DNA from: a virus
IMG/VR virus record: IMGVR_UViG_3300025645_000061
Span: 1 to 64,000 of that record
Length of the DNA stretch: 64,000 nucleotides
Strand: one strand, 5' to 3'
Shown in pieces: positions 307 to 61,894 of this stretch. The translations under genes were made by a program, and so were the position numbers. The stretch's first letter is position 1. Each line of letters begins with the position of its first letter. Under the pieces are notes generated by a model, which worked only from the letters and a program-made list of their open reading frames with translations, ran no database searches and was not told the origin of the DNA.

Positions 307-348
307 TATATAATTCCTCTATTGTTGAAGGAACTGAAACAATTCCCC
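307..348 (-). promoter_or_regulatory. conserved leader with alternative hairpins (copy A)
   Basis: Read on the minus strand, the leader has GGGGAATTGTTTC, then AGTTCC, then AACAATAGAGGAA just before the start codon. ATTGTT can pair with AACAAT (11-base loop), or GGGGAA can pair with TTCCTT using wobble pairs. The two hairpins exclude each other. The same arrangement occurs at 61853-61894. It is probably a translational control element; the ligand is unknown. Confidence 0.6.
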
Positions 349-434
349 TATACTACCATTTCATGTATCAGAATAGTGAATGGAACATTCAATTCTAGTT
401 AAACGAAGTTTCACTTCATTCCCATATATATTGT

Positions 435-731
435 TTATATGTTACGCCTTCTTCTAGACTCTATGTATTCTAACACATCAGAATCATATTTACCATTAAT
501 AAAGTTTACATGTTGGAAGTTACATCCACCTATTTTATAAGCATCATGAATATCATAACAGTGTAAAACCCTATAGTTTATCTTATATCCTGTATAAACA
601 CATGTAGCTGTTGTAGGGAAGTTATCTTTCCACACAATGTCTTTATGGAATTCTTCAAAGTTACCATCCTTAAAGTATTCTACAGCATGTGACCTATACT
701 GGTATACCACTAGAACACGCACCTCATTCAT
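435..731 (-). CDS. hypothetical protein (98 aa)
   Basis: Unrecognised protein. The longest frame starts at a TTG at 746, but an ATG at 731 (MNEVRVLVVYQYRS) has a GAGGG ribosome-binding site at proper spacing and is preferred. It overlaps the end of the upstream leftward gene by 8 bases, so the two are probably translationally coupled. The tail is arginine-rich (ESRRRRNI). It has no membrane segment or known motif. Confidence 0.6.
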   Translation of the reverse strand: MNEVRVLVVYQYRSHAVEYFKDGNFEEFHKDIVWKDNFPTTATCVYTGYKINYRVLHCYDIHDAYKIGGCNFQHVNFINGKYDSDVLEYIESRRRRNI

Positions 732-948
732 GGTCAAAACCCTCAAATTTAACTTCTATAAGTCTTTCTTCTTCTTGTGTTTCTACTTTAGTACCTTCAA
801 TGTCAAAGTCATAACCTACATACTCTACATCAATGGTCATGTCCCAACCCCTATATTTCTCTTTTATAGTAATCATCTTAGCTATAACTTCATCGGGTGT
901 ACAACCATTAATACTTATACTGCTTCCTAGTGTTTTATTTAATTTCAT
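724..948 (-). CDS. hypothetical protein (74 aa)
   Basis: Unrecognised small acidic protein. The start at 948 (MKLNKTLGSSISING) follows a textbook AGGAGG; the longer reading frame would place the ribosome-binding site inside the gene. It contains a stretch resembling DEVIAKMITIKEKYRG. It belongs to the leftward operon of small genes fed by the promoter at 1224-1252. Confidence 0.65.
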   Translation of the reverse strand: MKLNKTLGSSISINGCTPDEVIAKMITIKEKYRGWDMTIDVEYVGYDFDIEGTKVETQEEERLIEVKFEGFDHE

Positions 949-973
949 AAGTAAGCCTCCTATCTTAACCAAG

Positions 974-1183
974 TTATTGGGTAATCATGTTGATTAGTAT
1001 TATTTCTGTTTCTACAACAGACAGTTCAGCATAGAAGTGCATCATAGACTCACTTATAATAAAATCTAAGACACTTTCAGGAGTATAGTACATTCCACAG
1101 TCAAATTGTAACTCTTCTAAGGTTAAACTCTTAGACATATCCCAAATAACTTTATTATTATTGATGCTTTGTTCATTTGTCAT
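974..1183 (-). CDS. hypothetical protein (69 aa)
   Basis: Unrecognised small protein (MTNEQSINNNKVIWDMSK). An AAGGGG ribosome-binding site precedes the ATG. It is the first gene after a good leftward sigma70-type promoter, so it heads the short operon that includes the genes ending at 724, 435 and perhaps 130. Confidence 0.65.
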   Translation of the reverse strand: MTNEQSINNNKVIWDMSKSLTLEELQFDCGMYYTPESVLDFIISESMMHFYAELSVVETEIILINMITQ

Positions 1184-1223
1184 GTAAACCCCTTATATTT
1201 CTCTTTTTATTTGACTGAAACGT

Positions 1224-1252
1224 AGGATACACCTACACCTCACCTTTGTCAA
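1224..1252 (-). promoter_or_regulatory. leftward sigma70-type promoter
   Basis: On the minus strand a perfect TTGACA (1252-1247) is followed after 17 bases by TATCCT (1229-1224), about 40 bases upstream of the first leftward gene of this cluster. Confidence 0.65.
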
Positions 1253-1360
1253 CCCCTATACCCTAAAATATAATTAATATATACCTTGACTTTTCTCTTC
1301 TTTTAGGTTATCATTAATATAGACCTATATAGGGGTTATACAAGGTATATATATAACCTT

Positions 1361-1545
1361 ATAAAGATAAATAATAATAAATAATAACCTAGTAATATAT
1401 ATATAATATATAAAACCCTATATACCCTTATAAAACCCTTATAAAGATAAATAATAATAAATAATAACCTAGTAATATATATATAATATATAAAACCCTA
1501 TATACCCTTATAAAACCCTTATAAAGATAAATACTAATAAATAAA
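1361..1545. repeat. 80-bp tandem duplication plus partial third copy
   Basis: The 80-base unit at 1361-1440 (starting ataaagataaataataataa) is repeated exactly at 1441-1520. A degenerate third start follows at 1521-1545. It is AT-rich and non-coding. Exact identity implies a recent duplication. Confidence 0.9.
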
Positions 1546-1573
1546 AATATAAAACCATTATAACGGTTATTAT

Positions 1574-1690
1574 GGGTAATATACAAATTATAAAGGTTTA
1601 TAAGGGTTTTTAGGGTAATATACAAATTATAAAGGTTTATAAGGGTTTTTAGGGTAATATACAAATTATAAAGGTTTATAAGGGTTTTTA
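1574..1690. repeat. three tandem copies of a 39-bp repeat
   Basis: The unit gggtaatatacaaattataa...ggtttttа-type sequence recurs with a period of 39 bases at 1574, 1613 and 1652. It is non-coding and lies next to the 80-bp duplication. Confidence 0.9.
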
Positions 1691-1918
1691 GGGCTTCTAA
1701 ACCTAAAAATTTGGTTTGATTCTTTGCTTTTAGTATTCCAGAACAACAGATTCCCGTTTAAGGCTCCTAAATAGCCCTTAGAGACATTTTAATAACAAGG
1801 TATACAATCACCCTAGTTAAGGCTTAAAGTTCCTCTAAGAGCTGTTTTATGAAGACTCAGGGGTATATACTTAATGATTCCTAAGTAAACTTACGCTTTC
1901 TATAGAATACCTCCTATT

Positions 1919-2293
1919 TCAGTAAGTCCACATAGCAGCTTCTTCTCGAAGATCAAAATGTAAGAATCTTGCACTCCAATTACCATGCTGCTTTACCCCA
2001 ATTCCATTAATCAGAGGGTATTTAGCAATAATCCTCATAAGTCTAACAGCTTTACCTCCAGCTACCTGAATATCAATTGCTGCTCGTGTATGTTGTCCGG
2101 GTAATGCCTTAGCAAGTTCAACAGGGTGGTTTCTACATCGGTATCCAGAAGATACTGGCATAGTCTCTCCAAATTCTTCCCTAACAACACCCAGTATGTT
2201 CATTAACACGTTAAATTCATTATTTGGGTTGAGTTGTTCACAACCACATTTACACCTTAGTTCATCATCTGTAAAATACTTATATTTGTTCAT
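1919..2293 (-). CDS. M15-family peptidase, probable endolysin
   Basis: Zinc D-Ala-D-Ala-type peptidase of the M15_3 group that would cut peptidoglycan cross-bridge peptides. Visible zinc ligands are H68 and D74 (GQHTRAAIDIQ) and H112 (FLHFD). The N-terminal RCKCGCE stretch is usual in this family, and the 124-aa length matches a single catalytic domain. There is no signal peptide, so release through a holin would be needed. It sits in the leftward block, far from the transglycosylase at 60518, so the phage has two unlike cell-wall enzymes. A GAAGGGAG ribosome-binding site precedes the ATG. Confidence 0.88.
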   Translation of the reverse strand: MNKYKYFTDDELRCKCGCEQLNPNNEFNVLMNILGVVREEFGETMPVSSGYRCRNHPVELAKALPGQHTRAAIDIQVAGGKAVRLMRIIAKYPLINGIGVKQHGNWSARFLHFDLREEAAMWTY

Positions 2294-2321
2294 ACACTTT
2301 TACTCCCTTCTATTTGTAATT

Positions 2322-2597
2322 TTATTTTTCAGTTAAGTATTTATTATATATTTTGGGAAAAGTACACTCACCGCTTCTATGACGTATCTTCCATACCCTA
2401 GCAGAGACTTCACAGTGATCTTTCTCAATAGACTCTAATAAAAGGAATAAAATATTAACAAGCCAATTACCTTCACTGATATACCTCTTGTAGAGATATA
2501 ACCTCCCACACATGCTAGCTCCTTTGGAGCCACAAGTAATGATATTAACTGCCTTACTCGGTACATACCCAAGGGCTTTATCTAATTTGAATAACAT
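2322..2597 (-). CDS. hypothetical protein (91 aa)
   Basis: Unrecognised protein. The ATG at 2597 (MLFKLDKALGYVPS) is preferred over an upstream TTG at 2636 because AAGAGG lies 9 bases before it. It is basic, with a hydrophobic central helix (WLVNILFLLLESI), and ends 28 bases before the M15 peptidase start, so the two probably form one operon and this protein could act in lysis. That link rests on position only. Confidence 0.55.
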   Translation of the reverse strand: MLFKLDKALGYVPSKAVNIITCGSKGASMCGRLYLYKRYISEGNWLVNILFLLLESIEKDHCEVSARVWKIRHRSGECTFPKIYNKYLTEK

Positions 2598-2667
2598 TAA
2601 GCTAGACCTCTTATTGTATACTTTAATTTTAAACAAAAGGGGAAAAGTTTATACTACTCTAGTAGAG

Positions 2668-2679
2668 GAAACAATTCCC
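2668..2679 (-). promoter_or_regulatory. third copy of the GGGAATTGTTTC leader motif
   Basis: On the minus strand GGGAATTGTTTC lies about 70 bases before the gene starting at 2597. It is identical to the core of the conserved leaders at 307-348 and 61853-61894 but lacks the AACAAT partner. A different hairpin (CTCTACTAGAG) follows it. Confidence 0.4.
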
Positions 2680-2695
2680 TTTATGACTTTAGAGG

Positions 2696-3277
2696 TTAAA
2701 CATCTTCCCCACGCAAGCGTTTAATTAACTTACCTTTAGTTTCTTGTTTATTCCCTTTAAAGCCTTTAGATATAACGAAAGCTACTAGGGCTACTTTGGT
2801 CATAGCTGTTAGCTCGGTGTCACTTGGAAGTTCATCTACAACTTCGTCAGGGTCTTGCGTAAGTTCTTCAGAAACTTCTACATGCTCAACAGCTTCATCA
2901 ACACTAATTACTGAACCTTCTAAACCTTGTATTTGTTCTTCAACTACTTCTTCAAGATTTGGTTTGTCAAGCATAACCATAGTATATCCAGAATCTTCTA
3001 AACGAGCCTTATAGATACTTACTGGGGTTACTGATCTAATCTCACGACCATCAGCAGCAAGCTCTGCTACGATAGCTACCATCCCTGTCAGACCCCTTCC
3101 TTCAAATATCTTACCACAGTCTTTAACTCTAATGTCAAAGGAAGCCATTCGTGATACTGAACTTACTCCACCTGTATGTGCTCTAATATTACAAGAGGGT
3201 ATTAGTCCTGCTTGTGATTCTACTATTACTTCCTGTATAAACTCTTGTAAGTTATTTGATTTAATTAATTTACTCAT
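2696..3277 (-). CDS. hypothetical protein with C-terminal SAP/HeH-like domain
   Basis: 193-residue unrecognised protein. The first ~110 residues look like a folded beta-rich domain. Residues ~115-150 are strongly acidic (Glu/Asp/Val-rich linker). The last ~40 (TKVALVAFVISKGFKGNKQE then a basic KLIKRLR) resemble the SAP or HeH helix-extension-helix DNA-binding motif found at the ends of many phage proteins. The start overlaps the upstream zinc-ribbon gene by 8 bases, suggesting coupled translation. DNA binding is inferred from the tail only. Confidence 0.6.
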   Translation of the reverse strand: MSKLIKSNNLQEFIQEVIVESQAGLIPSCNIRAHTGGVSSVSRMASFDIRVKDCGKIFEGRGLTGMVAIVAELAADGREIRSVTPVSIYKARLEDSGYTMVMLDKPNLEEVVEEQIQGLEGSVISVDEAVEHVEVSEELTQDPDEVVDELPSDTELTAMTKVALVAFVISKGFKGNKQETKGKLIKRLRGEDV

Positions 3278-3593
3278 CTTCTAAATCCTCTTGTTGAAAC
3301 GAACCATTCCAAGATTCGCTATACTCTTCAAAAATATCAAAGAAAGCATCTCCACTTCCTAAGCCCATTGTAGAAATATCCTCTCTGTTAGCAATTCTTC
3401 TCATAAGGGAATCACTACCACCTACATACTCGTGTATAGGGCTGTAATCGAAACAGAGACCTCTACACATGGTACACAAACCATCATGTTCCCCTGTTTC
3501 TTTTTGTTTATATCTTAATTCCATAGAGCTTATCACTCTATCGCACGACATACATCGGCTCACACATTGTACTCCTGTTTTTGAACGACTCAC
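3270..3593 (-). CDS. zinc-ribbon protein (107 aa)
   Basis: Unrecognised protein with two CxxC pairs about 23 residues apart (CMSCDR near 14-17 and CTMCRG near 40-43), which is a zinc-ribbon arrangement. The C-terminal half is acidic. It is the first gene of the leftward operon driven from 3761-3789, so it is probably among the first leftward proteins made. It could be a DNA- or RNA-polymerase-binding regulator; no family is recognised. Confidence 0.6.
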   Translation of the reverse strand: MSRSKTGVQCVSRCMSCDRVISSMELRYKQKETGEHDGLCTMCRGLCFDYSPIHEYVGGSDSLMRRIANREDISTMGLGSGDAFFDIFEEYSESWNGSFQQEDLEDE

Positions 3594-3760
3594 ATTGGAA
3601 TCATTAGTTCCGAACCTTATAATAGCCCGTTATATAGGTTCTATATATTACTTGTTTATTCGTTATAAGGTATTATATATCTCTTATATATGTTTACTTA
3701 AAGTAAAATTTAAAAGAGAAATAAGATAAAGGTAACTTCATATACCCTTATATGGTTTTT

Positions 3761-3789
3761 ATTGTATCATGAGAAATCTGGTTTGTCAA
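3761..3789 (-). promoter_or_regulatory. leftward sigma70-type promoter
   Basis: On the minus strand TTGACA (3789-3784), a 17-base spacer, then TACAAT (3766-3761). It drives the zinc-ribbon, SAP-like and M15 peptidase genes. Confidence 0.75.
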
Positions 3790-3911
3790 GGGGTAATTTA
3801 CAATTAAATCAATATTATTTTGATTATTATTACTTTTTGTAAGGATAACCCCAAATTATAACACAAACCTACCTAAAAGATATATAAATCTTATATAAGT
3901 ATAAATAAAGC

Positions 3912-3940
3912 TTGACAAACGCCTCAACAGGTGTTAAACT
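3912..3940 (+). promoter_or_regulatory. rightward sigma70-type promoter
   Basis: AAGC-TTGACA at 3912, a 17-base spacer and TAAACT at 3935-3940, upstream of the gene at 3980. It shares the AAGCTTGAC context with several other promoters in the window. Confidence 0.7.
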
Positions 3941-3979
3941 AGCACTTAGAGATACAAGATTTATTTAAAGGATAAGCTT

Positions 3980-4471
3980 ATGGCGAATTATAACTACAAT
4001 CCTGATGTTGATAAGCCTATCTTTGATGTTGATGGTAACAAGCTTACAAGTATACCACATGCACCTAAAAAGCTTATATATAATGCTGATGGACTTAAGT
4101 TATCCAAGGTTACTCTGAACATACCACAAAAAAGTGGTTTTGGTACTAAAGAAAATGCCAAGAAGATTAACAGGATAGGAAGACCTAAAGGATCACGAAC
4201 AAAAACAAAGAATACCTTACTCGACGCAATTAGTCGCTTTGAGAATTACCAATTAGATGCTGCTGAACTTATCGTAGCTGTTATGATGGGTGATGAAGCT
4301 AAAGTTGGTGGAGAGATTAAAGTTTCTGATAGGGTTGGTGCAGCTAAGTACGTTATTGAAGCACCTAGAAAAATGGATAAACCGAGTACAGATGAAAAGA
4401 GTGATTCACTCGTTGAAGATGAGGTTGAAGTAATAAAACCTTTGATTTCCCTTACTGTCTCGGATCGTTGA
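3980..4471 (+). CDS. possible terminase small subunit
   Basis: 163-residue protein with an AT-hook-like GRPKGSRTKTKNT at about 67-79, followed by a helical region (LLDAISRFENYQLDAAELIV) and DRVGAAKYVIEAP. This layout of a basic GRPKGS tract and then helices is common in phage small terminase subunits, which recognise DNA for packaging. It is the first gene of the rightward virion module but lies 7.5 kb from the large subunit. It could instead be another small DNA-binding protein. Confidence 0.45.
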   Translation: MANYNYNPDVDKPIFDVDGNKLTSIPHAPKKLIYNADGLKLSKVTLNIPQKSGFGTKENAKKINRIGRPKGSRTKTKNTLLDAISRFENYQLDAAELIVAVMMGDEAKVGGEIKVSDRVGAAKYVIEAPRKMDKPSTDEKSDSLVEDEVEVIKPLISLTVSDR

Positions 4472-4555
4472 CGGTAAACTTATGTTAAATAATAATAATA
4501 AAAATAAGAATATACCGTGTAATAACACTGGGGGTTTCTTGGTGGGGGTATGCTC

Positions 4556-4909
4556 ATGATGGAACTTTTAGCTATGATGTGGAAACAACTAACTCATAAT
4601 ACTGCACTAGCGTTTATAGCTGTTGTCCTTATCTCAGGTTCTAATTCTTATGTAGCGTTAGAGTCCTCAAGAACAAACCATAACGTAGAAGCAACCAACA
4701 GAACAATGGTAGCCATTTCAGAAAGAAGTGAAAGTAATAGCCAGATTCTTGCAAAAACACAAAGAGATATGTTAAACTTGCAAGAGAAATTGTTTAACAG
4801 AGATTACGAACAGGATAAGGTTATTGCTCAAATTTATAGAGATATCCTTGACACAGAATCTCGTGTTAATAGACTAGAAGTACACAGTTTACAGAATAAC
4901 CGAAAATAA
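4556..4909 (+). CDS. membrane-anchored coiled-coil protein, possibly lysis-related
   Basis: About 117 residues: a short N-terminus, one hydrophobic segment (ALAFIAVVLISG) and then a long hydrophilic coiled-coil-like tail rich in Ser, Asn, Gln and Glu. The ATG at 4556 is preferred to the one at 4550 because GGTGGGGG would otherwise sit too close; 4559 is also possible. The topology suits a spanin- or holin-associated protein, but no family is recognised and there is no lytic enzyme beside it. Confidence 0.5.
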   Translation: MMELLAMMWKQLTHNTALAFIAVVLISGSNSYVALESSRTNHNVEATNRTMVAISERSESNSQILAKTQRDMLNLQEKLFNRDYEQDKVIAQIYRDILDTESRVNRLEVHSLQNNRK

Positions 4910-4990
4910 GTAAGACTAGTCAGAAGATGCTAACCTGAACCATTAGGTTTACATAAAGGAGAAATCTTCCATTTTTATTTAAATAAATAC

Positions 4991-5018
4991 TTGACATATA
5001 GAAAATCTGTGGTATATT
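4991..5018 (+). promoter_or_regulatory. sigma70-type promoter
   Basis: TTGACA at 4991-4996, a 16-base spacer ending TGG, and TATATT at 5013-5018, upstream of the small membrane protein gene at 5101. The TGG-TATATTA segment matches that of the promoter before the large terminase. Confidence 0.7.
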
Positions 5019-5100
5019 AGTACATGGATAAGGGACAGGAACGGTTTCCTGCTTATCGTCACTCGTAAAGGGTTTAGCCGATAAATTACCCGGAGGTTGT

Positions 5101-5325
5101 ATGAATATAGTATTCAACGTAGCAAAGTATTTACTCTGCATCGGGCTTATGGCACTAACGACAGTTGGTGTATTTGTGTGGTGTGTGGTACTAGGCAGTT
5201 ACGCTAGTATCTTGTTCGGTCTAACGCTGATGATGATGTCAGCACTGTACGCTTATGGTACTATGAGATTAGTTACATGGTTATGGGTTCTTAAGTATGA
5301 GGACTTCATACGACCCAAAGAATAG
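5101..5325 (+). CDS. two-TM membrane protein, holin candidate
   Basis: 74 residues with two hydrophobic segments (about 8-32 and 36-62) and a charged C-terminus (KYEDFIRPKE). A strong CCCGGAGG ribosome-binding site precedes the ATG and it has its own promoter. Size and topology fit a class II holin, which would let the leftward M15 peptidase reach the wall. This is inferred from topology alone. Confidence 0.5.
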   Translation: MNIVFNVAKYLLCIGLMALTTVGVFVWCVVLGSYASILFGLTLMMMSALYAYGTMRLVTWLWVLKYEDFIRPKE

Positions 5326-5550
5326 AAGTGCTAGTTATAAGAAGCACGAAAAATAGTAACAGTAGCTACCTGTATAAAAGAAGCACTAATTAAAGAGTTT
5401 CTACTTAGGTGATAGCCGGGTAGACATGGTAGTAGATTAGGATAAATGTTGCATCTTTCTTCCGCTGAGTAGCCTATGTCGCTCATCTACCGAATAAGTT
5501 AATCGACGTATGCAAACGGTCTAAGTGGTTAACAACATACACAATTATAA
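5326..5550 (+). other. structured non-coding stretch before tRNA-Thr
   Basis: No gene is visible. GGTAGA (5419-5424) can pair with TCTACC (5486-5491), enclosing about 60 bases. GTTAATCGA near 5499 is complementary to the 5' end of tRNA-Thr (TCGATTAG). The segment GCAAACGGTCTAAGTGG near 5513 resembles a tRNA D-arm, but no matching T-arm was found. It could be a degenerate tRNA or a tRNA-processing leader. Confidence 0.35.
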
Positions 5551-5625
5551 GCTCGATTAGTTAACTCGGTATAACAAGGAACTTGTAATTCTTAGTAGGC
5601 AGTTCGAATCTGTCATTGAGCACCA
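5551..5625 (+). tRNA. tRNA-Thr (anticodon UGU)
   Basis: A complete cloverleaf: acceptor GCTCGAT/ATTGAGC (one wobble), D stem GTTA/TAAC with GG in the loop, anticodon stem AGGAA/TTCTT with loop CTTGTAA, T arm GGCAG-TTCGAAT-CTGTC, and an encoded CCA. It reads ACA codons, which suits an AT-rich phage. Confidence 0.9.
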
Positions 5626-5692
5626 AAAATTATACCCATTCTCTCTATTTCAATATAATATAATAAAAACTTACCCAACTGGAAAACTAATA

Positions 5693-7474: not shown

Positions 7475-7513
7475 TAGAGTCCTCATAGGGGTAAATTTAA
7501 GAGAGGTTAATAG

Positions 7514-41547: not shown

Positions 41548-41626
41548 ATTAGATCGTAAATATATTCCAGCGGCTATTGCTAAAGCTGCAAGTAGGTGGT
41601 ATACTACTTACATCAATAAAGTATAA
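41540..41626 (+). CDS. very small basic protein (28 aa)
   Basis: GTG start 8 bases after AAGGAG, overlapping the macro gene end. Sequence MRKLDRKYIPAAIAKAASRW and then YTTYINKV: basic and helical. Real expression is plausible from the ribosome-binding site only. Confidence 0.4.
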   Translation: MRKLDRKYIPAAIAKAASRWYTTYINKV

Positions 41627-41644
41627 CAATAGGGGACTGATAAT

Positions 41645-52331: not shown

Positions 52332-52333
52332 AT

Positions 52334-52600: not shown

Positions 52601-53529
52601 TTTCAGCTAAGATTATAGCGGATTCTATTAGTGAATATGGAGACCGAATAACTACATTTGAGTTAGAATACCCACGTTTTATTCATGGTGAGTTGATGAC
52701 ACATAGGTTGTTCAGTCGTAATGCTGCATCAAGTAGAGCTATCCCAATTAATAAGATGATGGATCAGGTCTTGACAGCACCAGCTATGCCTGTAGAATGG
52801 GGTCTTAATAAGTCTGGTATGCAAGCAGAGGAGAAGCATAAGTCTACTTCAACCTGTGAATGGGCTTGGAAACAGGCTGCTGAAAGGGCAGTTGTGAGTG
52901 CTAGAGAACTACAAGGCTTAGGTCTACACAAGCAGATTGTCAATCGTGTACTGGAACCCTTCCAGCTAATGAAGACGATTGTTACAGCTACTGAGTTTGA
53001 TAACTTCTGGTGGTTACGTTGTCACCCTGCTGCACAACCTGAGATTCATGTACTTGCAGATAAGATGTATGAGTTATATACTCAAAACGAACCTAATATT
53101 CTTAAGCCGGGAGAATGGCATGTACCTTATGTTTCTGTCGAGTGGTGTGCTGGGGGTTCAGGGATTATATACGGCAGGGAGGGACTAACAAGCTTAACAC
53201 TAGAGGAAGCCCAAAAGATTTCAGCTTCATGTTGCGCTCAAGTATCGTATCGTTTACTGGATTGGTCATTAACTAAAGCTGTTAAGATTTTTGATATGCT
53301 AGTTACCATGACACCAGTACATGCGAGTCCTTTTGAACATATTGCTACACCAATGCACTTTATAAGTGTGTACCGTATGCTTGATCGTGATATGGGGCAA
53401 GATGGAGAGGTTTGGGAAAGAGGGATTACTCACTTAGGTAAGTCTGGATATTTTTGGAGCGGGAATTTAAAAGGCTTCATTCAATACAGACAATTGCTTG
53501 ACAACAATACCTGTTGGAAGTACAGTTAA
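52597..53529 (+). CDS. thyX: flavin-dependent thymidylate synthase
   Basis: 310 residues. ThyX motif THRLFSRNAASSRA (about 35-48) replaces R-H-R-x7-S; C-terminal LKGFIQYRQLLDNN is the second conserved segment. Converts dUMP to dTMP with methylene-tetrahydrofolate and FAD. Larger than most bacterial ThyX (~220-250) because of insertions around 85-110 and 160-190. Its stop TAA is the first triplet of the 23-bp repeat array. Confidence 0.9.
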   Translation: MISAKIIADSISEYGDRITTFELEYPRFIHGELMTHRLFSRNAASSRAIPINKMMDQVLTAPAMPVEWGLNKSGMQAEEKHKSTSTCEWAWKQAAERAVVSARELQGLGLHKQIVNRVLEPFQLMKTIVTATEFDNFWWLRCHPAAQPEIHVLADKMYELYTQNEPNILKPGEWHVPYVSVEWCAGGSGIIYGREGLTSLTLEEAQKISASCCAQVSYRLLDWSLTKAVKIFDMLVTMTPVHASPFEHIATPMHFISVYRMLDRDMGQDGEVWERGITHLGKSGYFWSGNLKGFIQYRQLLDNNTCWKYS

Positions 53530-53699
53530 GGACTAAATCGAATTTTAGTTAAGGACTAAATCGAATTTTAGTTAAGGACTAAAAGGGATTTTAGTTAAGG
53601 ACTAAAAGGGATTTTAGTTAAGGACTAAAAGGGATTTTAGTTAAGGACTAAAAGGGATTTTAGTTAAGGACTAAAAGGGATTTTAGTTAAGGACTAAAT
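53526..53699. repeat. 23-bp palindromic repeat array A (7 full copies)
   Basis: Unit TTAAGGACTAAA(T/A)(C/G)GRATTTTAG recurs every 23 bases from 53526 to 53686 with a partial eighth copy. Each has the near-palindrome CTAAAA-N4-TTTTAG and a 7-base spacer TTAAGGA. Same family and orientation as the array at 63006-63212. Confidence 0.95.
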
Positions 53700-54443: not shown

Positions 54444-54465
54444 ACATATAAAGGAGTTATAAAGT

Positions 54466-54690
54466 ATGTCACCAAATGAATTCCTAGAAAAACACGAAGA
54501 AGTTATAGCTGCTGTAGAGGCACGTTGTAAAGCTGACGGTGTAGACTGTAGGGTGATTGATAAGGTTAGAGCAAGTAATTACAGAGAAACGTGGTTTATC
54601 ATTGACATGGAAATTTATAAAGTGTTTAATAATGGTCAAACAACTAACCATGAATACCTTGGAGTATACTCAAATGGACAACACTACTAA
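54466..54690 (+). CDS. hypothetical protein (74 aa)
   Basis: Unrecognised (MSPNEFLEKHEEVIAAVEAR). Two cysteines near 31-40. AAAGGAG ribosome-binding site. Its end overlaps the next gene by 17 bases. Confidence 0.55.
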   Translation: MSPNEFLEKHEEVIAAVEARCKADGVDCRVIDKVRASNYRETWFIIDMEIYKVFNNGQTTNHEYLGVYSNGQHY

Positions 54691-54811
54691 AAAGAAAGAT
54701 AGGAACTTTGTACATAAGCACATGGAACGTTTTAACAAACCAAAAACCCATAAGGACAATAAGAACGATTACAAACGTAAACCTAAACATAAGGAAATAG
54801 AGGAGGAGTGA
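54674..54811 (+). CDS. small very basic protein (45 aa)
   Basis: MDNTTKKKDRNFVHKHMERF then a lysine-rich tail with an acidic end (KEIEEE). ATG 54674 follows GGAG; the longer frame is out of order with the previous gene. Could bind nucleic acid. Overlaps the next start by one base. Confidence 0.5.
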   Translation: MDNTTKKKDRNFVHKHMERFNKPKTHKDNKNDYKRKPKHKEIEEE

Positions 54812-54924
54812 TGTTACAAGCACTAACAACATGGATAAACACAGACAATTTTAAATTAGTATTTTACTCTATTGAGTTTATAACAATGTCTGCAATTATA
54901 ACTAACGCAATACACCAGTGGTAA
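54811..54924 (+). CDS. small membrane-like peptide (37 aa)
   Basis: MLQALTTWINTDNFKLVFYS then IEFITMSAIITNAIHQW: hydrophobic second half, one likely membrane helix. GAGGAGG overlaps the previous gene's end. Short and absent from a minimum-length ORF list. Confidence 0.5.
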   Translation: MLQALTTWINTDNFKLVFYSIEFITMSAIITNAIHQW

Positions 54925-54959
54925 CTTTTAAGATATAATAATAATAATGAAAATAAAGG

Positions 54960-54987
54960 TTGATTAGCTCTACAGGTTGTATATAAT
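54960..54987 (+). promoter_or_regulatory. promoter of the rIIA-like gene
   Basis: TTGATT at 54960, 16-base spacer and a perfect TATAAT at 54982-54987, then the leader AAACAAACGAGAGGC before the start at 55022. Confidence 0.75.
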
Positions 54988-55021
54988 AGCTACAACTTAA
55001 ACAAACGAGAGGCTTTAAAAC

Positions 55022-57043
55022 ATGATCCCGAATCAAACAGGTGTTCAAGCAGTAGTATCCGGTAACATGGAAACTGCACAGGCTAAAATTAAAATGAGCA
55101 GTCATATGGTTGACCTTCTTTCTAGTCGTGTTTACACAGATAAGATTTCTGCTGTTATTCGTGAGTTATCCTGTAATGCTTGTGATGCACAGGTTGCAGC
55201 TAACGTAACTACACCCATTGAAGTTCACTTACCCACTCGTTTTGAGCCTTACTTTGAGGTTAAAGATAACGGTACTGGTTTGTGCCATGAAGATGTTATG
55301 GATTTGTATGTAACATATGGTGCTTCTACTAAGCAAGAATCTAATGATGCTGTAGGTTTCATGGGTATTGGTTCTAAGTCTCCATTCAGTTATGTAGATG
55401 CCTTCACAACAACATCTAACTTCAAGGGTGTTAAACGTGTGTACAGTGTGTATAAGAACAAGGGTATTCCAGAGGTAGTATTGCTTTCTACAGAAGACAC
55501 TACTGAATCTAACGGTTTAGCAGTTAAAGTTTCTGTCAAAGAAGGAGATATCTATAACTTTGAAGTTAGTGCTAGGAAAATTTACTTCTTCTTTAACGTA
55601 GCACCTACTTGTAACTTTACTCTTGATTCTCTCAAAGATAAGATTGATGTAGACACTAGTGAGTTTTCTACATACCCTAATGATTACAGTTCAGAAATTA
55701 AAGCTGTTATGGGTCAAGTTGCATATGCAGTACCTGACAGTGACTCCCTTCGGAAACTGCAAACATTAGTTAAGAAGCGTAACCTTGTTATCAAGTTTAA
55801 CATCGGTGAGGTACAACCCGCAGCCAGTAGAGAACATCTGTCTAATGATGAAAATACAAGCAAGAACCTTGAAGCTAAACTGGACAGAATATATACAGTT
55901 TATAAACAAGAGATTCTAGATAAATCTCAAGAGTTTGATACAGTACGAGAAGCTTATGCGTATCTTACAAACGCTCTTGGTTCAAACAAAGCTAACCTTG
56001 AGCTAAATTATGGTGGTAAAAGTTATGAAGATTGGAACAAAAGTATTGAAACTGCTATTGATTCTATCAATAATACTTTTACAGGTACAATGTACGAGAG
56101 GGATTCTGGTTGGGGAAGTAAATCTTGCAATATGAATACAGTTATTTATGCACCTAGCTTAATACTAGGAAGTCATACCAATAATATTTCCTTCTTAATT
56201 AAAGACCTTAAATCCGGTGGGGTTGGAGCTTACAAAAGTGCAATGCCGAAAGGTACTAGTGGGTTTGTTGTTGACAATCGGAAAGAAGCAGAAGATATTT
56301 GTAAGCAGTTGATTTTTAATGTTAATAGTGTTACCTTCTATAAAGCTTCTGAGATTCATAAACCAATTAAGTCAGTTAAAAGTAACCCTGTTATTAAAGT
56401 TATTAAGAAGCAGGAAGGTGGTAGAGCTTATACTTCTACGCTAGAGATTGACCTTAAGAGTATAAACAAAATAGCTGTGTATGTTTCTGCTAATAGAAAC
56501 GGTTACAATGACCATAACGGGAATTACCACAGTAACTTACATGATGTATTTTCCCTTGTTACTGCTGGTATATACTCTTCTATATTTGTTGTACCTAAAT
56601 CAGTGTTGAAGAAAATCCACAATGTTAACCTACGAGAGCTTTCACCAAAGCTTACTGAAAGCAAGGTAACTAAAGCAATGATCCGTAATAAAGCTTTAGG
56701 AAGGTTTAACACTTATAAGCTTGACAAAGAGTTGTATCGAGTGTTTAGCTCCTCAGAAGAAATTACACCACAATACAAAAGGGTTAATAGGGAAGCTAGT
56801 ATTAGGTATGATAGAACTTTAGATGTACAATGTGATAGAATTATGGAATTTGTTACTTTTCACTCTAAAACTCAGAAGTTGATTAACAGGGTTTGTGGGT
56901 ATACTGGTAACTTAGCTTCTGTTAAGGATAAACTTACTAACAAGTATAAGTTTTTGGAAAACTTTTCAACTACTGATACAGAATCTATAAAGTATGTTAA
57001 GTGTTTAGTTAAAGCACAAGATTCAGGTGAATTTAATACTTGA
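55022..57043 (+). CDS. rIIA-like: rIIA-like GHKL ATPase
   Basis: 673 residues. N-terminal GHKL/histidine-kinase-type ATPase fold: RELSCNACDAQ (N-box), VKDNGTGL and GFMGIGSKSPFSYV (G-boxes). The rest is an extended region like T4 rIIA. In T4, rIIA and rIIB affect lysis timing and exclusion by prophages; the molecular role is not settled. It has its own promoter and its stop codon is used as the -35 box of the rIIB-like promoter. Confidence 0.85.
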   Translation: MIPNQTGVQAVVSGNMETAQAKIKMSSHMVDLLSSRVYTDKISAVIRELSCNACDAQVAANVTTPIEVHLPTRFEPYFEVKDNGTGLCHEDVMDLYVTYGASTKQESNDAVGFMGIGSKSPFSYVDAFTTTSNFKGVKRVYSVYKNKGIPEVVLLSTEDTTESNGLAVKVSVKEGDIYNFEVSARKIYFFFNVAPTCNFTLDSLKDKIDVDTSEFSTYPNDYSSEIKAVMGQVAYAVPDSDSLRKLQTLVKKRNLVIKFNIGEVQPAASREHLSNDENTSKNLEAKLDRIYTVYKQEILDKSQEFDTVREAYAYLTNALGSNKANLELNYGGKSYEDWNKSIETAIDSINNTFTGTMYERDSGWGSKSCNMNTVIYAPSLILGSHTNNISFLIKDLKSGGVGAYKSAMPKGTSGFVVDNRKEAEDICKQLIFNVNSVTFYKASEIHKPIKSVKSNPVIKVIKKQEGGRAYTSTLEIDLKSINKIAVYVSANRNGYNDHNGNYHSNLHDVFSLVTAGIYSSIFVVPKSVLKKIHNVNLRELSPKLTESKVTKAMIRNKALGRFNTYKLDKELYRVFSSSEEITPQYKRVNREASIRYDRTLDVQCDRIMEFVTFHSKTQKLINRVCGYTGNLASVKDKLTNKYKFLENFSTTDTESIKYVKCLVKAQDSGEFNT

Positions 57044-57068
57044 CACAAGGTTTAACAACAAGTAATAT
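57040..57068 (+). promoter_or_regulatory. promoter overlapping the rIIA stop
   Basis: TTGACA at 57040-57045 contains the rIIA TGA stop, 17-base spacer, TAATAT at 57063-57068. It drives the rIIB-like gene. Confidence 0.75.
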
Positions 57069-57097
57069 AACTTTAAATTAATTGAGAGGATATAAAT

Positions 57098-58501
57098 ATG
57101 AGTACAAATAATGTTGGTTGTTTAAGTGAAGCCCAAAAAGAAGATATCTATGCTCTGTGGGAAGAGGGCGGTGTAACTAAAACACATCTAGCAGCTCAGT
57201 TTGATGTTTCTACACGAACCATTGGTAGGGTTATTGATTCTTTTGAAGAGGAAGAAGAATATTCGAACTCTGAAGAAGTCGAATCAGAGCTTTACGATCC
57301 ACTTAAACTCAATTGTAAAGCACTTGGGTATAAGGTGGGTGACTTGTTTAAATACAAAGAGGGTATAGATGAATATGATATGACTTTTGAACCTGATTCT
57401 ATTCTTTCATTATCTAGTGATGATGGTTCTATCCTCCCTTTGTTTGTAGAGGAGGGTTATCCTACGGAGATGGAACACTATGAGTACCTGAGCTTTGTAA
57501 CCCCTTGTGAAGAAGTTCTTGAAGACACAAATGAAACCTTTTGTGAAGATGCTGAATACCAGTTTGAGGAATATGTTGAAGTAACTAATTTAGGTCATGT
57601 GTACACTAATTACAATGCTCTCGCTGATAAGCTTAATTTGAAAGGCTTTAAATCTGGTGAAAAACCAACAAAAGGGGGAGTTTATGTTGTACTCGCGGCA
57701 ACTCCACACCCTGATACAGGGTTAATTGTATACGTTATTGAGTCCTTGTCAGGAGAACAGTATATGATTTCGGGGAATGGTTTATCTTCTCATAAAGGAA
57801 CAGAAGGGAAATATACTTTAATCCCCGGCAGTATTATCGTAATTCAGTATAAAGGTGAGGTATACACTGTAGATGCTTCTCATGGTTCCTTTGATGCAAT
57901 CGTAAACTATTGTAGTCAAGGTTGGTATGATTCTGCTGTAAACTTAGCTCAACCTATCAAGGCTATCACAGAGTTCACCAAAGGCGATGTAACAGTCTCT
58001 AACGGTCATGTGATGTATATGGGTGATGAAGTTAATGATGGACTAGCTCTGGCTATCTTACGTCTTATGGAAGAAGGTGACGAAGGATTTAAGAAGCTTG
58101 TAGCTTTCTTGGGTAAAGTTAAAAAGAACCCTTCTTATAAGTCTCGTATGGAATTGTTTGGGTTTATTAAGGCTGCTGACATTGAGATTACCGACTCTGG
58201 TGACTTGATTTGTTGGAAAGGTATTAAGGATGATTGGACAGACTGTTATTCAGGTTCTATTGATAACTCAATTGGTGCTATCGTTACAATGGAACGTACA
58301 GACGTTAACGATGACTCTAACCAAACCTGTAGTGCTGGGCTACACTGTTGTGCTAAGAGCTACTTAGATTCCTTCTATGGATCACGAGTGGTCAAGGTGT
58401 TGGTTAACCCTGAAGACGTTGTATCAATTCCCACAGACTACAATGATGCTAAGATGCGAACCTGTAAGTATGTAGTTATTGAGGAAGTTACAGAGCTTTA
58501 A
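57098..58501 (+). CDS. rIIB-like: rIIB-like protein with N-terminal HTH
   Basis: 467 residues. Residues ~8-50 (LAAQFDVSTRTIGRVIDSFE) form a helix-turn-helix like sigma region 4. A highly acidic segment follows. From about 260 to the end lies the rIIB core: MEEGDEGFKKLVAFLGKVKK, ITDSGDLICWKGIKDDWTDC, SAGLHCCAKSYLDSFYGSRV and VNPEDVVSIPTDYNDAKMRT. T4 rIIB lacks so long a middle part; residues ~160-250 look like an added domain. It probably acts with the rIIA-like protein. Confidence 0.85.
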   Translation: MSTNNVGCLSEAQKEDIYALWEEGGVTKTHLAAQFDVSTRTIGRVIDSFEEEEEYSNSEEVESELYDPLKLNCKALGYKVGDLFKYKEGIDEYDMTFEPDSILSLSSDDGSILPLFVEEGYPTEMEHYEYLSFVTPCEEVLEDTNETFCEDAEYQFEEYVEVTNLGHVYTNYNALADKLNLKGFKSGEKPTKGGVYVVLAATPHPDTGLIVYVIESLSGEQYMISGNGLSSHKGTEGKYTLIPGSIIVIQYKGEVYTVDASHGSFDAIVNYCSQGWYDSAVNLAQPIKAITEFTKGDVTVSNGHVMYMGDEVNDGLALAILRLMEEGDEGFKKLVAFLGKVKKNPSYKSRMELFGFIKAADIEITDSGDLICWKGIKDDWTDCYSGSIDNSIGAIVTMERTDVNDDSNQTCSAGLHCCAKSYLDSFYGSRVVKVLVNPEDVVSIPTDYNDAKMRTCKYVVIEEVTEL

Positions 58502-58519
58502 ATAATATGAGAAAACGGG

Positions 58520-58548
58520 TTGACATAGGGCAGGGAAGCCCCTATCAT
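58520..58548 (+). promoter_or_regulatory. promoter with a palindromic spacer
   Basis: TTGACA at 58520-58525, 17-base spacer, TATCAT at 58543-58548. The spacer holds an inverted repeat, ATAGGG (58525-58530) and CCCTAT (58540-58545), overlapping both boxes; a candidate operator. Confidence 0.7.
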
Positions 58549-58580
58549 TGCCTTATTGAAATCAAACGAGAGGAATTAAT

Positions 58581-58874
58581 ATGTTAGATAAAGCTGTTGT
58601 ACTAGAGAGAGCAATCCGTTGGAGAGCAATAGCAATGGTAGCCGTCCTCAACAAAGAGAGTGGAGCTGGAGATACAGCCTTCGCAAATGGAAGTGCTTAT
58701 ATTGATGTTCTTAACGTACCTTGGAATAAACAAGAGGGAGTCTTGACAAGAGAAAGTATTCAACTGTATGCTGATGGGCTAGCAACTAAGTTTATACTTG
58801 AAAGTGGAAATAACTTGATGCAATTTCTAGATGATAATGTTAAACTTGAAGTCCTAGAGATTGTTACACAATAA
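58581..58874 (+). CDS. hypothetical protein (97 aa)
   Basis: Unrecognised, helical (MLDKAVVLERAIRWRAIAMV). A leader with AAATCAAACGAGAGGAA precedes it. Sole gene between the palindromic promoter and the tRNA region. Confidence 0.55.
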   Translation: MLDKAVVLERAIRWRAIAMVAVLNKESGAGDTAFANGSAYIDVLNVPWNKQEGVLTRESIQLYADGLATKFILESGNNLMQFLDDNVKLEVLEIVTQ

Positions 58875-58885
58875 ATAACAAGGAT

Positions 58886-58942
58886 ACGCTGTGTTGAAAT
58901 CTGGATAAGCTGTAGTCCAGAGCGTGAGAGCACATACAGTGC
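58886..58942 (+). ncRNA. hairpin pair upstream of tRNA(CAU)
   Basis: ACGCT (58886-58890) pairs with AGCGT (58921-58925), enclosing CTGGA/TCCAG (58901-58905 with 58916-58920). A second hairpin GCAC-ATACA-GTGC follows at 58930-58942. Not a cloverleaf. Could be a processing leader, a decayed tRNA or a small RNA. Confidence 0.35.
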
Positions 58943-58950
58943 CTAATTAA

Positions 58951-59028
58951 GGGCTGGAAGCTTAACAGGTTATAAGCAGTCCCCTCATAAGGGAAAGATA
59001 GGGAGTTCAAGTCTCTCACGGCCCACCA
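58951..59028 (+). tRNA. tRNA with anticodon CAU (Met or Ile2)
   Basis: Acceptor GGGCTGG/ACGGCCC (one wobble, one mismatch), D stem GCTT/AAGC with GG in the loop, anticodon arm TCCC-CTCATAA-GGGA, T arm GGGAG-TTCAAGT-CTCTC, encoded CCA. CAU may read AUG or, if lysidine-modified, AUA, which is more useful in an AT-rich genome. Confidence 0.8.
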
Positions 59029-59047
59029 AATTTAAGGAGAAAGATTG

Positions 59048-59467
59048 ATGACTAGAATTAATTTAATTGATCCAGAAGAACTTCACGACCAGCATCTTGT
59101 AGCGGAATATCGTGAGTTATTCATGGTGGGTTCTTCTTTACAAAGATCGCTTAAATCACCAAATTGGAACTTGGCAAAAATTCCAAAATCCTTCACGCTC
59201 AATAAAGGTCACGTTTCTTTCTTTTACGACAAAGGTCGATATCTGTCTAAGAGGTATAAACTCTTGATTAAGGAGATGAAAAATAGAGGCATGAATCCCG
59301 ATCCAGATAGAGTATTTAAACGTGAACAATGGCCCGATGAATTTTATCTAGATTGGGTTGCGTCCGACCACGATAAAGATATCATTCGTGAGAGGATACA
59401 AGAGAAAATTGATATGAAACCTAACTGGTATAAAAAAACGGTGGTTACGAGTATGGCTACAATTTAA
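59048..59467 (+). CDS. denV-like: pyrimidine-dimer DNA glycosylase (T4 DenV-like)
   Basis: 139 residues from ATG 59048 (AAGGAG upstream), same size as T4 endonuclease V. After Met removal T2 is the nucleophile, R3 and E23 (AEYREL) match T4 catalytic positions. GHVSFFYDKGRYLSKRYKLL and MKPNWYKK are conserved. It excises UV cyclobutane dimers, an advantage in sunlit water. The neighbour tRNA and fabD are unrelated in pathway. Confidence 0.92.
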   Translation: MTRINLIDPEELHDQHLVAEYRELFMVGSSLQRSLKSPNWNLAKIPKSFTLNKGHVSFFYDKGRYLSKRYKLLIKEMKNRGMNPDPDRVFKREQWPDEFYLDWVASDHDKDIIRERIQEKIDMKPNWYKKTVVTSMATI

Positions 59468-59481
59468 TGGAGTACCTTGTA

Positions 59482-60378
59482 ATGGACAGTAAGATAGCTT
59501 TTGTATTTCCCGGTCAAGGTTCACAGAAGATAGGGATGCTATCAGCGTTAGCAGAGAAGTTTGATATAGTAACTTCTACCTTTGCAGATGCGTCAGATGT
59601 TTTAGGGTATGACCTTTGGGATTTAGCTCAAAACGGTACTCAAGAAGACATTACTAAGACTGAGTATACTCAACCCTTACTACTTACAGTTAGCGTAGTA
59701 ATGTGGAGAGTTTGGATTCAAGAGGGAGGTACAAAACCCGCTTTCATGTTAGGTCATAGTATGGGAGAATGGTCTGCTCTAGTTTGTGCCGGTGTGGTTG
59801 AATTTAAGGATGCTGTTCGTCTAGTGCGTAATCGTGGTGCTTATATGCAGGAAATTGGGGAAGGTGCTATGGCTGCTGTTATTGGTTTAGACAGTGATAC
59901 AGTTAAGTCTATTTGTGCTGATGCTTGCCAAGGTGAAGAAGTTACTGCTGTAAATTTTAATTCTCCCGGTCAGGTAGTTATTGCAGGAAAATATTTAGCT
60001 GTAGAAAGGGCTATTAAGGGTTGTAAAGAAGCTGGAGCTAAACGTATTTTTCATTTACCCGTAAGTGCTCCATTTCATACAAACCTTATGCAACCAGTAG
60101 CAGATAGATTAACAGTGGACATTATGAGTACAAAGTTTTATAATCCAGAAATACCAGTTGTACACAATGTCAACGCCCAAACTGAGGATGACCCTGAACG
60201 CATCAAACAGTTGATGATAGAACAAATATGTAGTCCTGTTCTTTGGGTTGACTGTGTGAAGACATTAACTTATAATGGTGTTACCTCCATAGTTGAATGT
60301 GGTGCTGGAAGGGTACTTAGTAGGCTTTGTAAACGTATTGATAGTACGTTAGAGATATACCAAATTAAGGGAGTATAG
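59482..60378 (+). CDS. fabD: malonyl-CoA:ACP transacylase (FabD)
   Basis: 298 residues from ATG 59482 (GGAG 9 bases upstream; ATG 59467 overlaps denV). Close to E. coli FabD in order of motifs: FVFPGQGSQ near 6-14, GHSMGEWSALVCAGV with nucleophile S93, AVNFNSPGQVVIAG and VSAPFHTNLM with H199. Complete length, no frameshift. It loads malonate on ACP for fatty-acid synthesis. Its final codons and stop are inside the tRNA-Arg gene. Likely acquired from a gammaproteobacterial host and kept as an auxiliary metabolic gene (inference). Confidence 0.93.
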   Translation: MDSKIAFVFPGQGSQKIGMLSALAEKFDIVTSTFADASDVLGYDLWDLAQNGTQEDITKTEYTQPLLLTVSVVMWRVWIQEGGTKPAFMLGHSMGEWSALVCAGVVEFKDAVRLVRNRGAYMQEIGEGAMAAVIGLDSDTVKSICADACQGEEVTAVNFNSPGQVVIAGKYLAVERAIKGCKEAGAKRIFHLPVSAPFHTNLMQPVADRLTVDIMSTKFYNPEIPVVHNVNAQTEDDPERIKQLMIEQICSPVLWVDCVKTLTYNGVTSIVECGAGRVLSRLCKRIDSTLEIYQIKGV

Positions 60379-60444
60379 TGTAAGGGATTAACACAGGGGT
60401 CTTCTAAACCCTTAATCTAGGTTCGAATCCTAGTATTCCCGCCA
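60369..60444 (+). tRNA. tRNA-Arg (anticodon UCU)
   Basis: Acceptor GGGAGTA/TATTCCC (one wobble), D stem GTGT/ACAC, anticodon stem GGGGT/ACCCT with loop CTTCTAA, T arm CTAGG-TTCGAAT-CCTAG, encoded CCA. Its first ten bases include the fabD stop TAG. Reads AGA, a common codon in this phage. Confidence 0.9.
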
Positions 60445-60456
60445 AACAAATAAAGC

Positions 60457-60485
60457 TTGACATAAACATTTAACTTAGTTAATAT
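60457..60485 (+). promoter_or_regulatory. promoter of the transglycosylase operon
   Basis: AAAGC-TTGACA at 60457, a 17-base spacer and TAATAT at 60480-60485, followed by AAACAAATAGAGG before the start at 60518. Confidence 0.78.
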
Positions 60486-60517
60486 ACTCAAACGTTAAAC
60501 AAATAGAGGTATTAAGA

Positions 60518-61060
60518 ATGTACGGAAATGATTACAACAGTAACTTCGGAACATTTTTCATCATATCCATTATTATCTTGATGATATTAAGTGGGTTAAG
60601 TTATAGGGCAGAAGCGTATTGTAAGCCTGTAGAGGCTCTTAGTGATAAACAGGTACAAACACTCTACCAATCCTATAACTACGGTGTAAGGTATGATATG
60701 GGGCTTACACTGGCAGCTATAGCTTGGAAGGAGTCTAACGCTGGTCTTTACCCTATTAATATTAGTGATCCCTCTTTTGGAGTACACCATATCCTTTTGA
60801 CAACAGCCATGAAACGTTCTAATACAAAAGACACCAGTTATCACAAGAATATGTTAGCTTCAAGTTTATTAGCTCATGATGTTAGTGCTTCTTATGCCAT
60901 TAAAGAAATTAAATATTGGTTTAAATATCATAAAGGTGATTGGTTTAAGGTTTGGTCTTCATATAATGCTGGATTTAATATAAAAGCTGGTGTAAAGTAT
61001 GCTGAGAGTATACAAAAGAAAGTTAATCTTATTAAAAGATGTCTAATAGCAGGAGGTTAA
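60518..61060 (+). CDS. membrane-anchored lytic transglycosylase-like protein
   Basis: 180 residues. Residues ~12-28 (FFIISIIILMILSGLSY) form a signal-anchor or signal peptide. SLT-type domain: catalytic E72 in AIAWKESNAG, SDPSFGVHHI, and WFKVWSSYNAGF. It could be a signal-arrest-release endolysin, which needs no holin to reach the wall, or a wall enzyme used in infection. It lies in an early-type operon, unlike usual lysis genes. Confidence 0.8.
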   Translation: MYGNDYNSNFGTFFIISIIILMILSGLSYRAEAYCKPVEALSDKQVQTLYQSYNYGVRYDMGLTLAAIAWKESNAGLYPINISDPSFGVHHILLTTAMKRSNTKDTSYHKNMLASSLLAHDVSASYAIKEIKYWFKYHKGDWFKVWSSYNAGFNIKAGVKYAESIQKKVNLIKRCLIAGG

Positions 61061-61062
61061 TC

Positions 61063-61191
61063 ATGAAGTTCATTATAAGGTTTATTGATTATATAAGAAT
61101 TAAGTGGACAATCAGAAAAATTAGAGCTAAGTTGGTAACTATATCTAAAGCTAATAGGGAGACCTCTGAAGATGATGCAGTTCAACGATGA
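61063..61191 (+). CDS. small basic protein (42 aa)
   Basis: MKFIIRFIDYIRIKWTIRKI then RAKLVTISKANRET: amphipathic basic helix. AGGAGG lies between the transglycosylase stop and this start. Overlaps the next gene by 20 bases. Confidence 0.5.
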   Translation: MKFIIRFIDYIRIKWTIRKIRAKLVTISKANRETSEDDAVQR

Positions 61192-61342
61192 CATAGAAGC
61201 AGAAGAACACCTTATATCTTGTGGGTTTACTAAGAAACAAGATAAGAAAGAAAATAAAAAGAAAAGATTGTTATTCAAAGATAACATGGGTAATATTATG
61301 GAAATCAGAAAGGGACAAGTGTTTTTTGATATTAAACTTTAA
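61172..61342 (+). CDS. small charged protein (56 aa)
   Basis: MMQFNDDIEAEEHLISCGFT then a lysine-rich centre and EIRKGQVFFDIKL. GGGAG is 10 bases upstream. Short, unrecognised. Confidence 0.5.
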   Translation: MMQFNDDIEAEEHLISCGFTKKQDKKENKKKRLLFKDNMGNIMEIRKGQVFFDIKL

Positions 61343-61358
61343 AACTAGGAGCACCATT

Positions 61359-61508
61359 ATGAAAGTTGTAGACTTTAAGACACAGAAACAAACAACATTT
61401 GCAACTAGGCACAAAGAACATATTAGTCGGAAGACTAAGAAAGCTGCTAAAGAGCTTCGTACTTACCGTAAGAATAGGCACGAGTGGTGGAATCTCTATA
61501 TAGACTAG
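61359..61508 (+). CDS. small basic protein (49 aa)
   Basis: MKVVDFKTQKQTTFATRHKE then HISRKTKKAAKELRTYRK. ATG 61359 follows AGGAGC; the longer frame from 61221 is only an accident of the neighbouring frame. Highly basic, could bind nucleic acid. Confidence 0.5.
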   Translation: MKVVDFKTQKQTTFATRHKEHISRKTKKAAKELRTYRKNRHEWWNLYID

Positions 61509-61521
61509 CGGGGGGTATTAT

Positions 61522-61815
61522 ATGTACTACAAAGAAGCAACAATAGTAATTGATGAATTTGATGGAGTAGACCTAAAGGTTTTCCAAGAGTATCCTATGG
61601 GGTCTGGTAATGTGTCCTTATACATTGATGGGGGAAAGTATACAAGTGGTTATGAGAACGTTCTACGAGGTCTAGAGCACTGTTACCTAATATACTTGAT
61701 GATGAATGGAACACAGATGCCTATACCAGCTAAAGCTTTCCTTGATAAACACATTAAGGATGCACTAGATTCATCAGATATTAATTATCTTAAAAATAAA
61801 GCTTGCATTAAATAA
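61522..61815 (+). CDS. hypothetical protein (97 aa)
   Basis: Unrecognised (MYYKEATIVIDEFDGVDLKV). Mixed alpha/beta with no motif. Its 3' end carries the promoter of the next transcription unit. Confidence 0.6.
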   Translation: MYYKEATIVIDEFDGVDLKVFQEYPMGSGNVSLYIDGGKYTSGYENVLRGLEHCYLIYLMMNGTQMPIPAKAFLDKHIKDALDSSDINYLKNKACIK

Positions 61816-61830
61816 CCAAAGGTCTATACT
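61803..61830 (+). promoter_or_regulatory. sigma70-type promoter
   Basis: AAAGC-TTGCAT at 61803, 16-base spacer, TATACT at 61825-61830. The -35 lies in the end of the previous gene; transcription would start near 61837, just before the conserved leader. Confidence 0.7.
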
Positions 61831-61852
61831 GTGTATACAAACTTAAAGAGAG

Positions 61853-61894
61853 AAGGGAATTGTTTCGGTTCCCTTAACAATAGAGGAAGATATT
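61853..61894 (+). promoter_or_regulatory. conserved leader with alternative hairpins (copy B)
   Basis: AAGGGAA (61853-61859) can pair perfectly with TTCCCTT (61869-61875), or ATTGTT (61859-61864) with AACAAT (61876-61881) next to the GAGGAA ribosome-binding site. The two share bases and exclude each other. Same layout as the leader at 307-348. Confidence 0.65.

Follow-up and report, generated by a model that had tools for sequence, protein, structure and literature searches.

A short leader block stands ahead of two genes on opposite strands of a virus genome, and our results support its being a shared, structured leader of otherwise unrelated phage genes, as a preliminary description of this DNA had proposed. 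The DNA analysed (the window) comprises bases 1-64000 of the 68,428-base IMG/VR virus record IMGVR_UViG_3300025645_000061; the block is present at 61853-61894 on the plus strand (leader A) and at 307-349 on the minus strand (leader B), in each case directly before an ATG. We favor, tentatively and with a probability of about 0.45, the interpretation that the block is a duplicated short leader module with a structural role, i.e. one that keeps the ribosome-binding site open or stabilizes the mRNA. Such a module would consist of one stable hairpin (9-10 bp with a small loop) with an A-rich ribosome-binding site directly after it. Several genes, located at either end of the record, are preceded by a hairpin of this kind, which in related leaders (termed E), and probably in leader A, forms part of the 5′ leader of a sigma70-type early promoter cassette.

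From GGGAA through GAGGAA, leaders A and B are identical at 31 of 34 bases with equal spacing, and their local alignment scores above all of 300 dinucleotide shuffles; the proposal of the same leader, with the same spacing, on two strands is thus borne out. The likeness is restricted to the hairpin and the ribosome-binding site. The upstream flanks give an alignment matched by 381 of 500 shuffles, i.e. they are unrelated, which implies that the block is a short module and not a piece of a long duplication. The 12-mer GGGAATTGTTTC occurs exactly at 336-347 (minus), 2668-2679 (minus) and 61855-61866 (plus) and at no other site in the 68,428-base record, the chance of a given 12-mer being approximately 0.008 in 137 kb (both strands). 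Within the window, AACAATAGAGGAA, which by sequence constitutes the ribosome-binding site of leader A (61876-61888, plus) and of leader B (314-326, minus), has exact matches only at these two positions.

Folding calculations predict a single prominent structure, hairpin 1, in both leaders: AAGGGAAUUG-UUU-CGGUUCCCUU in A (61853-61875, plus; 10 bp, -11.4 kcal/mol, mean pair probability 0.98) and GGGGAAUUG-UUU-CAGUUCCUU in B (328-348, minus; 9 bp, -8.1 kcal/mol). The pairing of a GGGAA-type arm, as described previously, is recovered in this hairpin, but the computed stem is longer, being 9-10 bp with a UUU loop, and takes in most of what had been regarded as the loop, TTGTTTCGG; the G/A difference in that supposed loop corresponds to a U-G/U-A pair. 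The further claim that substitutions maintain pairing through wobbles holds in part: the stems of A and B differ at four places, and at three of these a pair is retained (A-U/G-U, U-G/U-A and G-C/G-U) while the fourth difference disrupts the terminal pair, a count that is by itself within chance.

Related hairpins are present at both ends of the record. At the right end (63.7-68.4 kb) there are at least seven near-identical early promoter-leader cassettes, in which TTGCAA-16/17-TATAAT is followed by GACTACACACAC...AAAGAGAG and an ATG, each preceding a small open reading frame (ORF), one of which is assigned to DUF7227. The first of these (63741-63801, plus) has TTGACG-16-TATAAT, then GACTACACACAC...AAAGAGAG and an ATG at 63802, and at least six more follow up to 68.4 kb. 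Two cassettes outside the window, E4 and E6 (64750 and 65589), have leaders that are the same as those of neighboring cassettes apart from an identical hairpin insert, AAGCGAAUCG-AAA-CGGUUCGUUU; the extra segment, AAGCGAATCGAAACGGTTCGTTT, folds as a 10-bp hairpin with an AAA loop (-9.8 kcal/mol). At the left end, hairpin F, AGCGAAUC-UUGGAAU-GGUUCGUU (3296-3320, minus; -7.8 kcal/mol), lies just before gene 2696-3277, and in its alignment with E6 (AGCGAATC, GGTTCGTTTCAA) none of 300 shuffles scored as well.

Leader A is probably itself an early cassette, because its promoter and the initial portion of its leader can be aligned with the E cassettes (2 of 300 shuffles as good for E3, 0 of 300 for E6). 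The promoter-like sequence concerned, TTGCAT-16-TATACT (61803-61830, plus), was read directly and belongs to the family of the right-end early cassettes; a generic consensus promoter scan did not reach it. Leader A is predicted to have its transcription start approximately 15 nt before the hairpin. Promoters are clear at E4 and E6 and identified by alignment at A; no strong promoter was found before B or F. When A, B, E and F are aligned as one hairpin (five leaders, four distinct hairpins), all 38 pair cells remain paired; one position has a two-sided G-C/C-G change and another has U-G, U-A and C-G pairs, which is consistent with selection on the pairing but falls short of proof. These similarities are suggestive of a common origin of the A/B and E/F hairpin types. 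Hairpin 1 is computed to be dominant in A, E and F and to make up approximately half the ensemble in B, and it includes little of the ribosome-binding site. A sixth candidate hairpin at 67.54 kb was rejected; it lies within a terminator loop, scores 15 bits and is probably a chance match.

The third copy of the 12-mer, copy C (2668-2679, minus), had also been put forward as a partial leader. Its match is exact, and in the predicted fold its GGGAA pairs with UUCCC approximately 30 nt downstream; 48 nt beyond the 12-mer there is a ribosome-binding-site region, TATACAATAAGAGG (2607-2620, minus), then the ATG (2597-2595) of a 91-codon ORF. However, the flanks match those of A weakly (a level reached by 6 of 300 shuffles), the 12-mer at C, although unlikely by chance (approximately 0.008), was looked for only after the fact, and the short hairpin is not formed in folding.

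With respect to mechanism, the hairpin would tie up the upstream pyrimidine-rich arm and hold it away from the Shine-Dalgarno sequence, such that AACAAUAGAGGAA stays open; it may also protect the 5′ portion of the mRNA against decay, giving steady translation. In leader B, loss of hairpin 1 would free the arm to cover the Shine-Dalgarno sequence. The copies may have arisen via short duplications or insertions inside the genome. The fold and position of the leaders are computed, and from them we infer the function. Several points weigh against this interpretation: the stabilizing or site-opening function is a predicted one; taken singly, the hairpins have weak folding z-scores (-0.6 to -2.0); hairpin F overlaps coding sequence, i.e. 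the end of ORF 3270-3593; and the pairing conservation comes from only four distinct hairpins and, being matched by 69 of 500 shuffles, is not beyond chance. Furthermore, when a model built from A and B is run on the record, the E hairpins come first among all other sites, yet with an E-value of 0.075 (F is at 5.8). Conversely, a model built from E and F places A first among the other sites of the record, at an E-value of 0.67.

The preliminary description had gone further in proposing two mutually exclusive hairpins, i.e. a translational switch in which hairpin 1 competes with a second hairpin formed by ATTGTT and AACAAT. In its favor, both leaders hold a 6-bp Watson-Crick complement, and a stem as long in the same geometry is found in only 0.7-2% of shuffles when G-U pairs are disallowed; with G-U pairs, however, approximately 22% of shuffles do equally well. 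The 5′ arm of hairpin 2 sits within the stem and loop of hairpin 1, and hairpin 2 is calculated at -2.0 (A) and -1.2 (B) kcal/mol, i.e. 9.4 and 6.9 kcal/mol above hairpin 1, with an ensemble probability of 0.0 in both leaders. The two folds are therefore not of comparable energy, hairpin 2 is unpopulated in A and B, and a switch between them is unsupported by the folding calculations. Moreover, AACAATAG is also present before gene 41645 (as AACAATAGGGGA at 41625-41636), a site that has no neighboring ATTGTT, and leader F has AACAA without ATTGTT; since AACAATAG and AACAA recur where ATTGTT is missing, their conservation requires no such pairing. We thus consider this switch extremely improbable. 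A two-state switch in leader B alone fares somewhat better, but is still very unlikely. There, AGUUCCUU (335-328, minus), the 3′ arm of hairpin 1, can pair with the Shine-Dalgarno sequence GAGGAAUU (319-312, minus) in an alternative hairpin spanning 312-335; hairpin 1 would free the Shine-Dalgarno sequence, the alternative would cover it, and 5′ processing or a bound factor would shift the balance. The two energies are close (-8.1 and -8.0 kcal/mol), the populations are approximately 50:50, and in leader B without the 5′ arm the Shine-Dalgarno sequence is computed to be 98% paired. However, the alternative is missing in A, where one C for U breaks the pairing, and was not seen in E or F, and purine/pyrimidine complementarity to a Shine-Dalgarno sequence arises easily.

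The main rival to a structural module is an RNA operator, in which a phage-encoded translational repressor would bind the hairpin and the adjacent AACAAUAG, so covering the ribosome-binding sites of several genes, like T4 gp43 on its own mRNA, the operator of which is a hairpin plus ribosome-binding site (PMC3014915). That in A, B and F the hairpin is next to the ribosome-binding site, that it is common to unrelated genes, and that the GAAU/GUUC stem bases and a constant U-G pair are retained in A, B, E and F all argue for this proposal, which we nonetheless regard as unlikely, given that the loop varies (UUU, AAA, UUGGAAU), no candidate binding protein was identified, and the genes have no common function. 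The more specific form of the idea, i.e. that the GAAU/GUUC hairpin family is an insertable operator recognized by a phage RNA-binding protein, which would thereby coordinate five or six unrelated early genes, located at the two genome ends, in their translation, is distinctly improbable at present. A DNA operator, with the inverted repeat acting as a repressor site near the transcription start of early promoters, appears similarly hard to credit. The E insert does contain a palindrome, GAAACG-GTT-CGTTTC, just past a strong promoter, and leader A lies approximately 15 nt after its predicted start; however, the arms keep their complementarity through a change of sequence (G-C to C-G), and the constant T/G asymmetry in all copies fits a U-G pair, both of which favor RNA pairing, and neither B nor F has a strong promoter visible before it. 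The E palindrome could serve as a DNA operator, but this is less plausible for the hairpin family as a whole, because the arms change together and one copy (F) is inside coding sequence. A role as transcription terminator was rejected; there is no U-run after the stem, and neither 1-4000 nor 60300-64000 yielded a terminator-like site.

Comparison with known phage systems reveals partial parallels. T4-type promoter early stem-loops (PeSLs) are short cassettes, repeated between variable early genes and combining an early promoter with a stem-loop, which the leaders here resemble in part; a title cited in PMC4503421 describes PeSLs as composite promoter-terminator motifs. The present leaders differ in having no U-run after the stem, in having the stem between promoter and gene, and in that several copies are without a clear promoter. 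The mRNA operator of T4 gene 43 (DNA polymerase) likewise has a hairpin shortly upstream of the ribosome-binding site, with conserved loop bases and autogenous control (PMC3014915), whereas here the loops are UUU, UUU, AAA and UUGGAAU, several unrelated genes are involved, and the phage's own polymerase gene (41836) is without the hairpin. The T4 gene 32 operator, also a structure in phage leader RNA upstream of a start codon, is a pseudoknot that lies 67 nt ahead of the start and is followed by an A+U-rich run (PMC3014915). A pseudoknot of that type is predicted to be unlikely in these leaders, because AACAAT follows the 3′ arm of hairpin 1 at a distance of 0-1 nt, too little to cross hairpin 1 once formed; the loops are too short for two coaxial stems, and we rejected this fold as not feasible.

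The genes behind the shared leaders are unrelated, and a shared operator or duplicated cassette thus fits better than autogeny of any single gene. Leader A precedes a gene for a 114-residue protein (61895-62239, plus) of phrog_16218/phrog_2267 (unknown function), with relatives in Autographiviridae and Vibrio phages; its IMG/VR match is the same virus, and homologs at 30-45% identity are found in podoviruses. A single-sequence structure model (predicted local distance difference test score, pLDDT, 62) has helices and strands, but is too poor to establish the SH3-like fold proposed earlier. Leader B precedes a 58-residue, Cys-containing ORF (130-306, minus) with no family or database match; database searches with the 58-residue protein and the 91-codon protein behind copy C gave no match.

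Searches of IMG/VR, GTDB and phage records revealed no copy of the shared leader outside this virus. In IMG/VR, exact two-part patterns matched the same virus and gave 11 further matches, which look like chance and include no matching leader; the E hairpin pattern had no match there, and the early promoter TATAATGACTACACACA gave only single unrelated matches. A 20-base hairpin pattern in GTDB genomes had two matches in unrelated bacteria, approximately the chance expectation. Covariance models run on at most 18 phage records gave a best value of 8e-5, antisense within an ORF, the rest being weak. One hairpin before a start codon in an 86-kb record (polymerase 32% identical) was set aside, since a T-run comes after it and it resembles a terminator, and no such hairpin was present before the 114-residue homolog in the three podovirus leaders read (3/3). 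Other contigs of the same virus carry identical leaders; one of these has 21 differences in 8.2 kb and none in B, C or F, too few to judge conservation. The B-to-C distance is 80 bases less in another contig of the virus, as if lacking one 80-bp unit of the left-end tandem repeats (9, 80 and 39 bp; 1-126 and 1355-1693), and three contigs begin at or near the 9-bp array.

The gene set (family A DNA polymerase, primase/helicase, ribonucleotide reductase, Thy1, PhoH, rIIA, rIIB and a Mu-type portal) looks like that of a lytic myovirus-type phage. The polymerase is nearest (approximately 49%) to those of Aeromonas Plateaulakevirus phages; the closest relative is an 11-kb fragment with 69% polymerase identity and without the leaders or their genes, and close relatives are hardly sampled. 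An Rfam 15 search of the window gave only three tRNAs above gathering score and no leader family. The region past 63.2 kb is known from this record alone, another contig of the virus stopping in the 23-bp repeat array there, and the right end may be a misjoin; promoter sequences in common, the match between the E and F hairpins and the presence of TAGTGAATGGAACATTC at 374 and 67580 argue that it is part of the same genome. TAGTGAATGGAACATTC is a 17-base exact repeat (374-390 and 67580-67596) at both record ends, with an inner palindrome, GAATG-GAA-CATTC. Two arrays of related, iteron-like 23-bp repeats (AGTTAAGGACTAAAAGGGATTTT and TTTAGGACCAAATCGAATTTTAG type) lie at 53524-53698 and 63006-63215, and the DnaA-box-like TGTGGATAA around 63290-63325. 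A strong promoter-like TTGACA-16-TATATT, then a GATAAGGGACAGGAACGGTTTCCTGCTTATC hairpin (4991-5050), lies upstream of tRNA-Thr (5551). The window also contains an acyl carrier protein S-malonyltransferase gene (FabD; 59467-60378), above the NCBIfam TIGR00128 cut-off, an unusual metabolic gene for a phage; the preceding ORF (59045-59467) we take to read like T4 endonuclease V.

The overall results suggest that this phage distributes a small leader hairpin over otherwise unrelated genes, in a manner that resembles the early regulatory cassettes found in T4-type phages. Were the hairpin an operator, several orphan early genes would be joined in one post-transcriptional regulon, and the leaders would provide an assay for finding its regulator.

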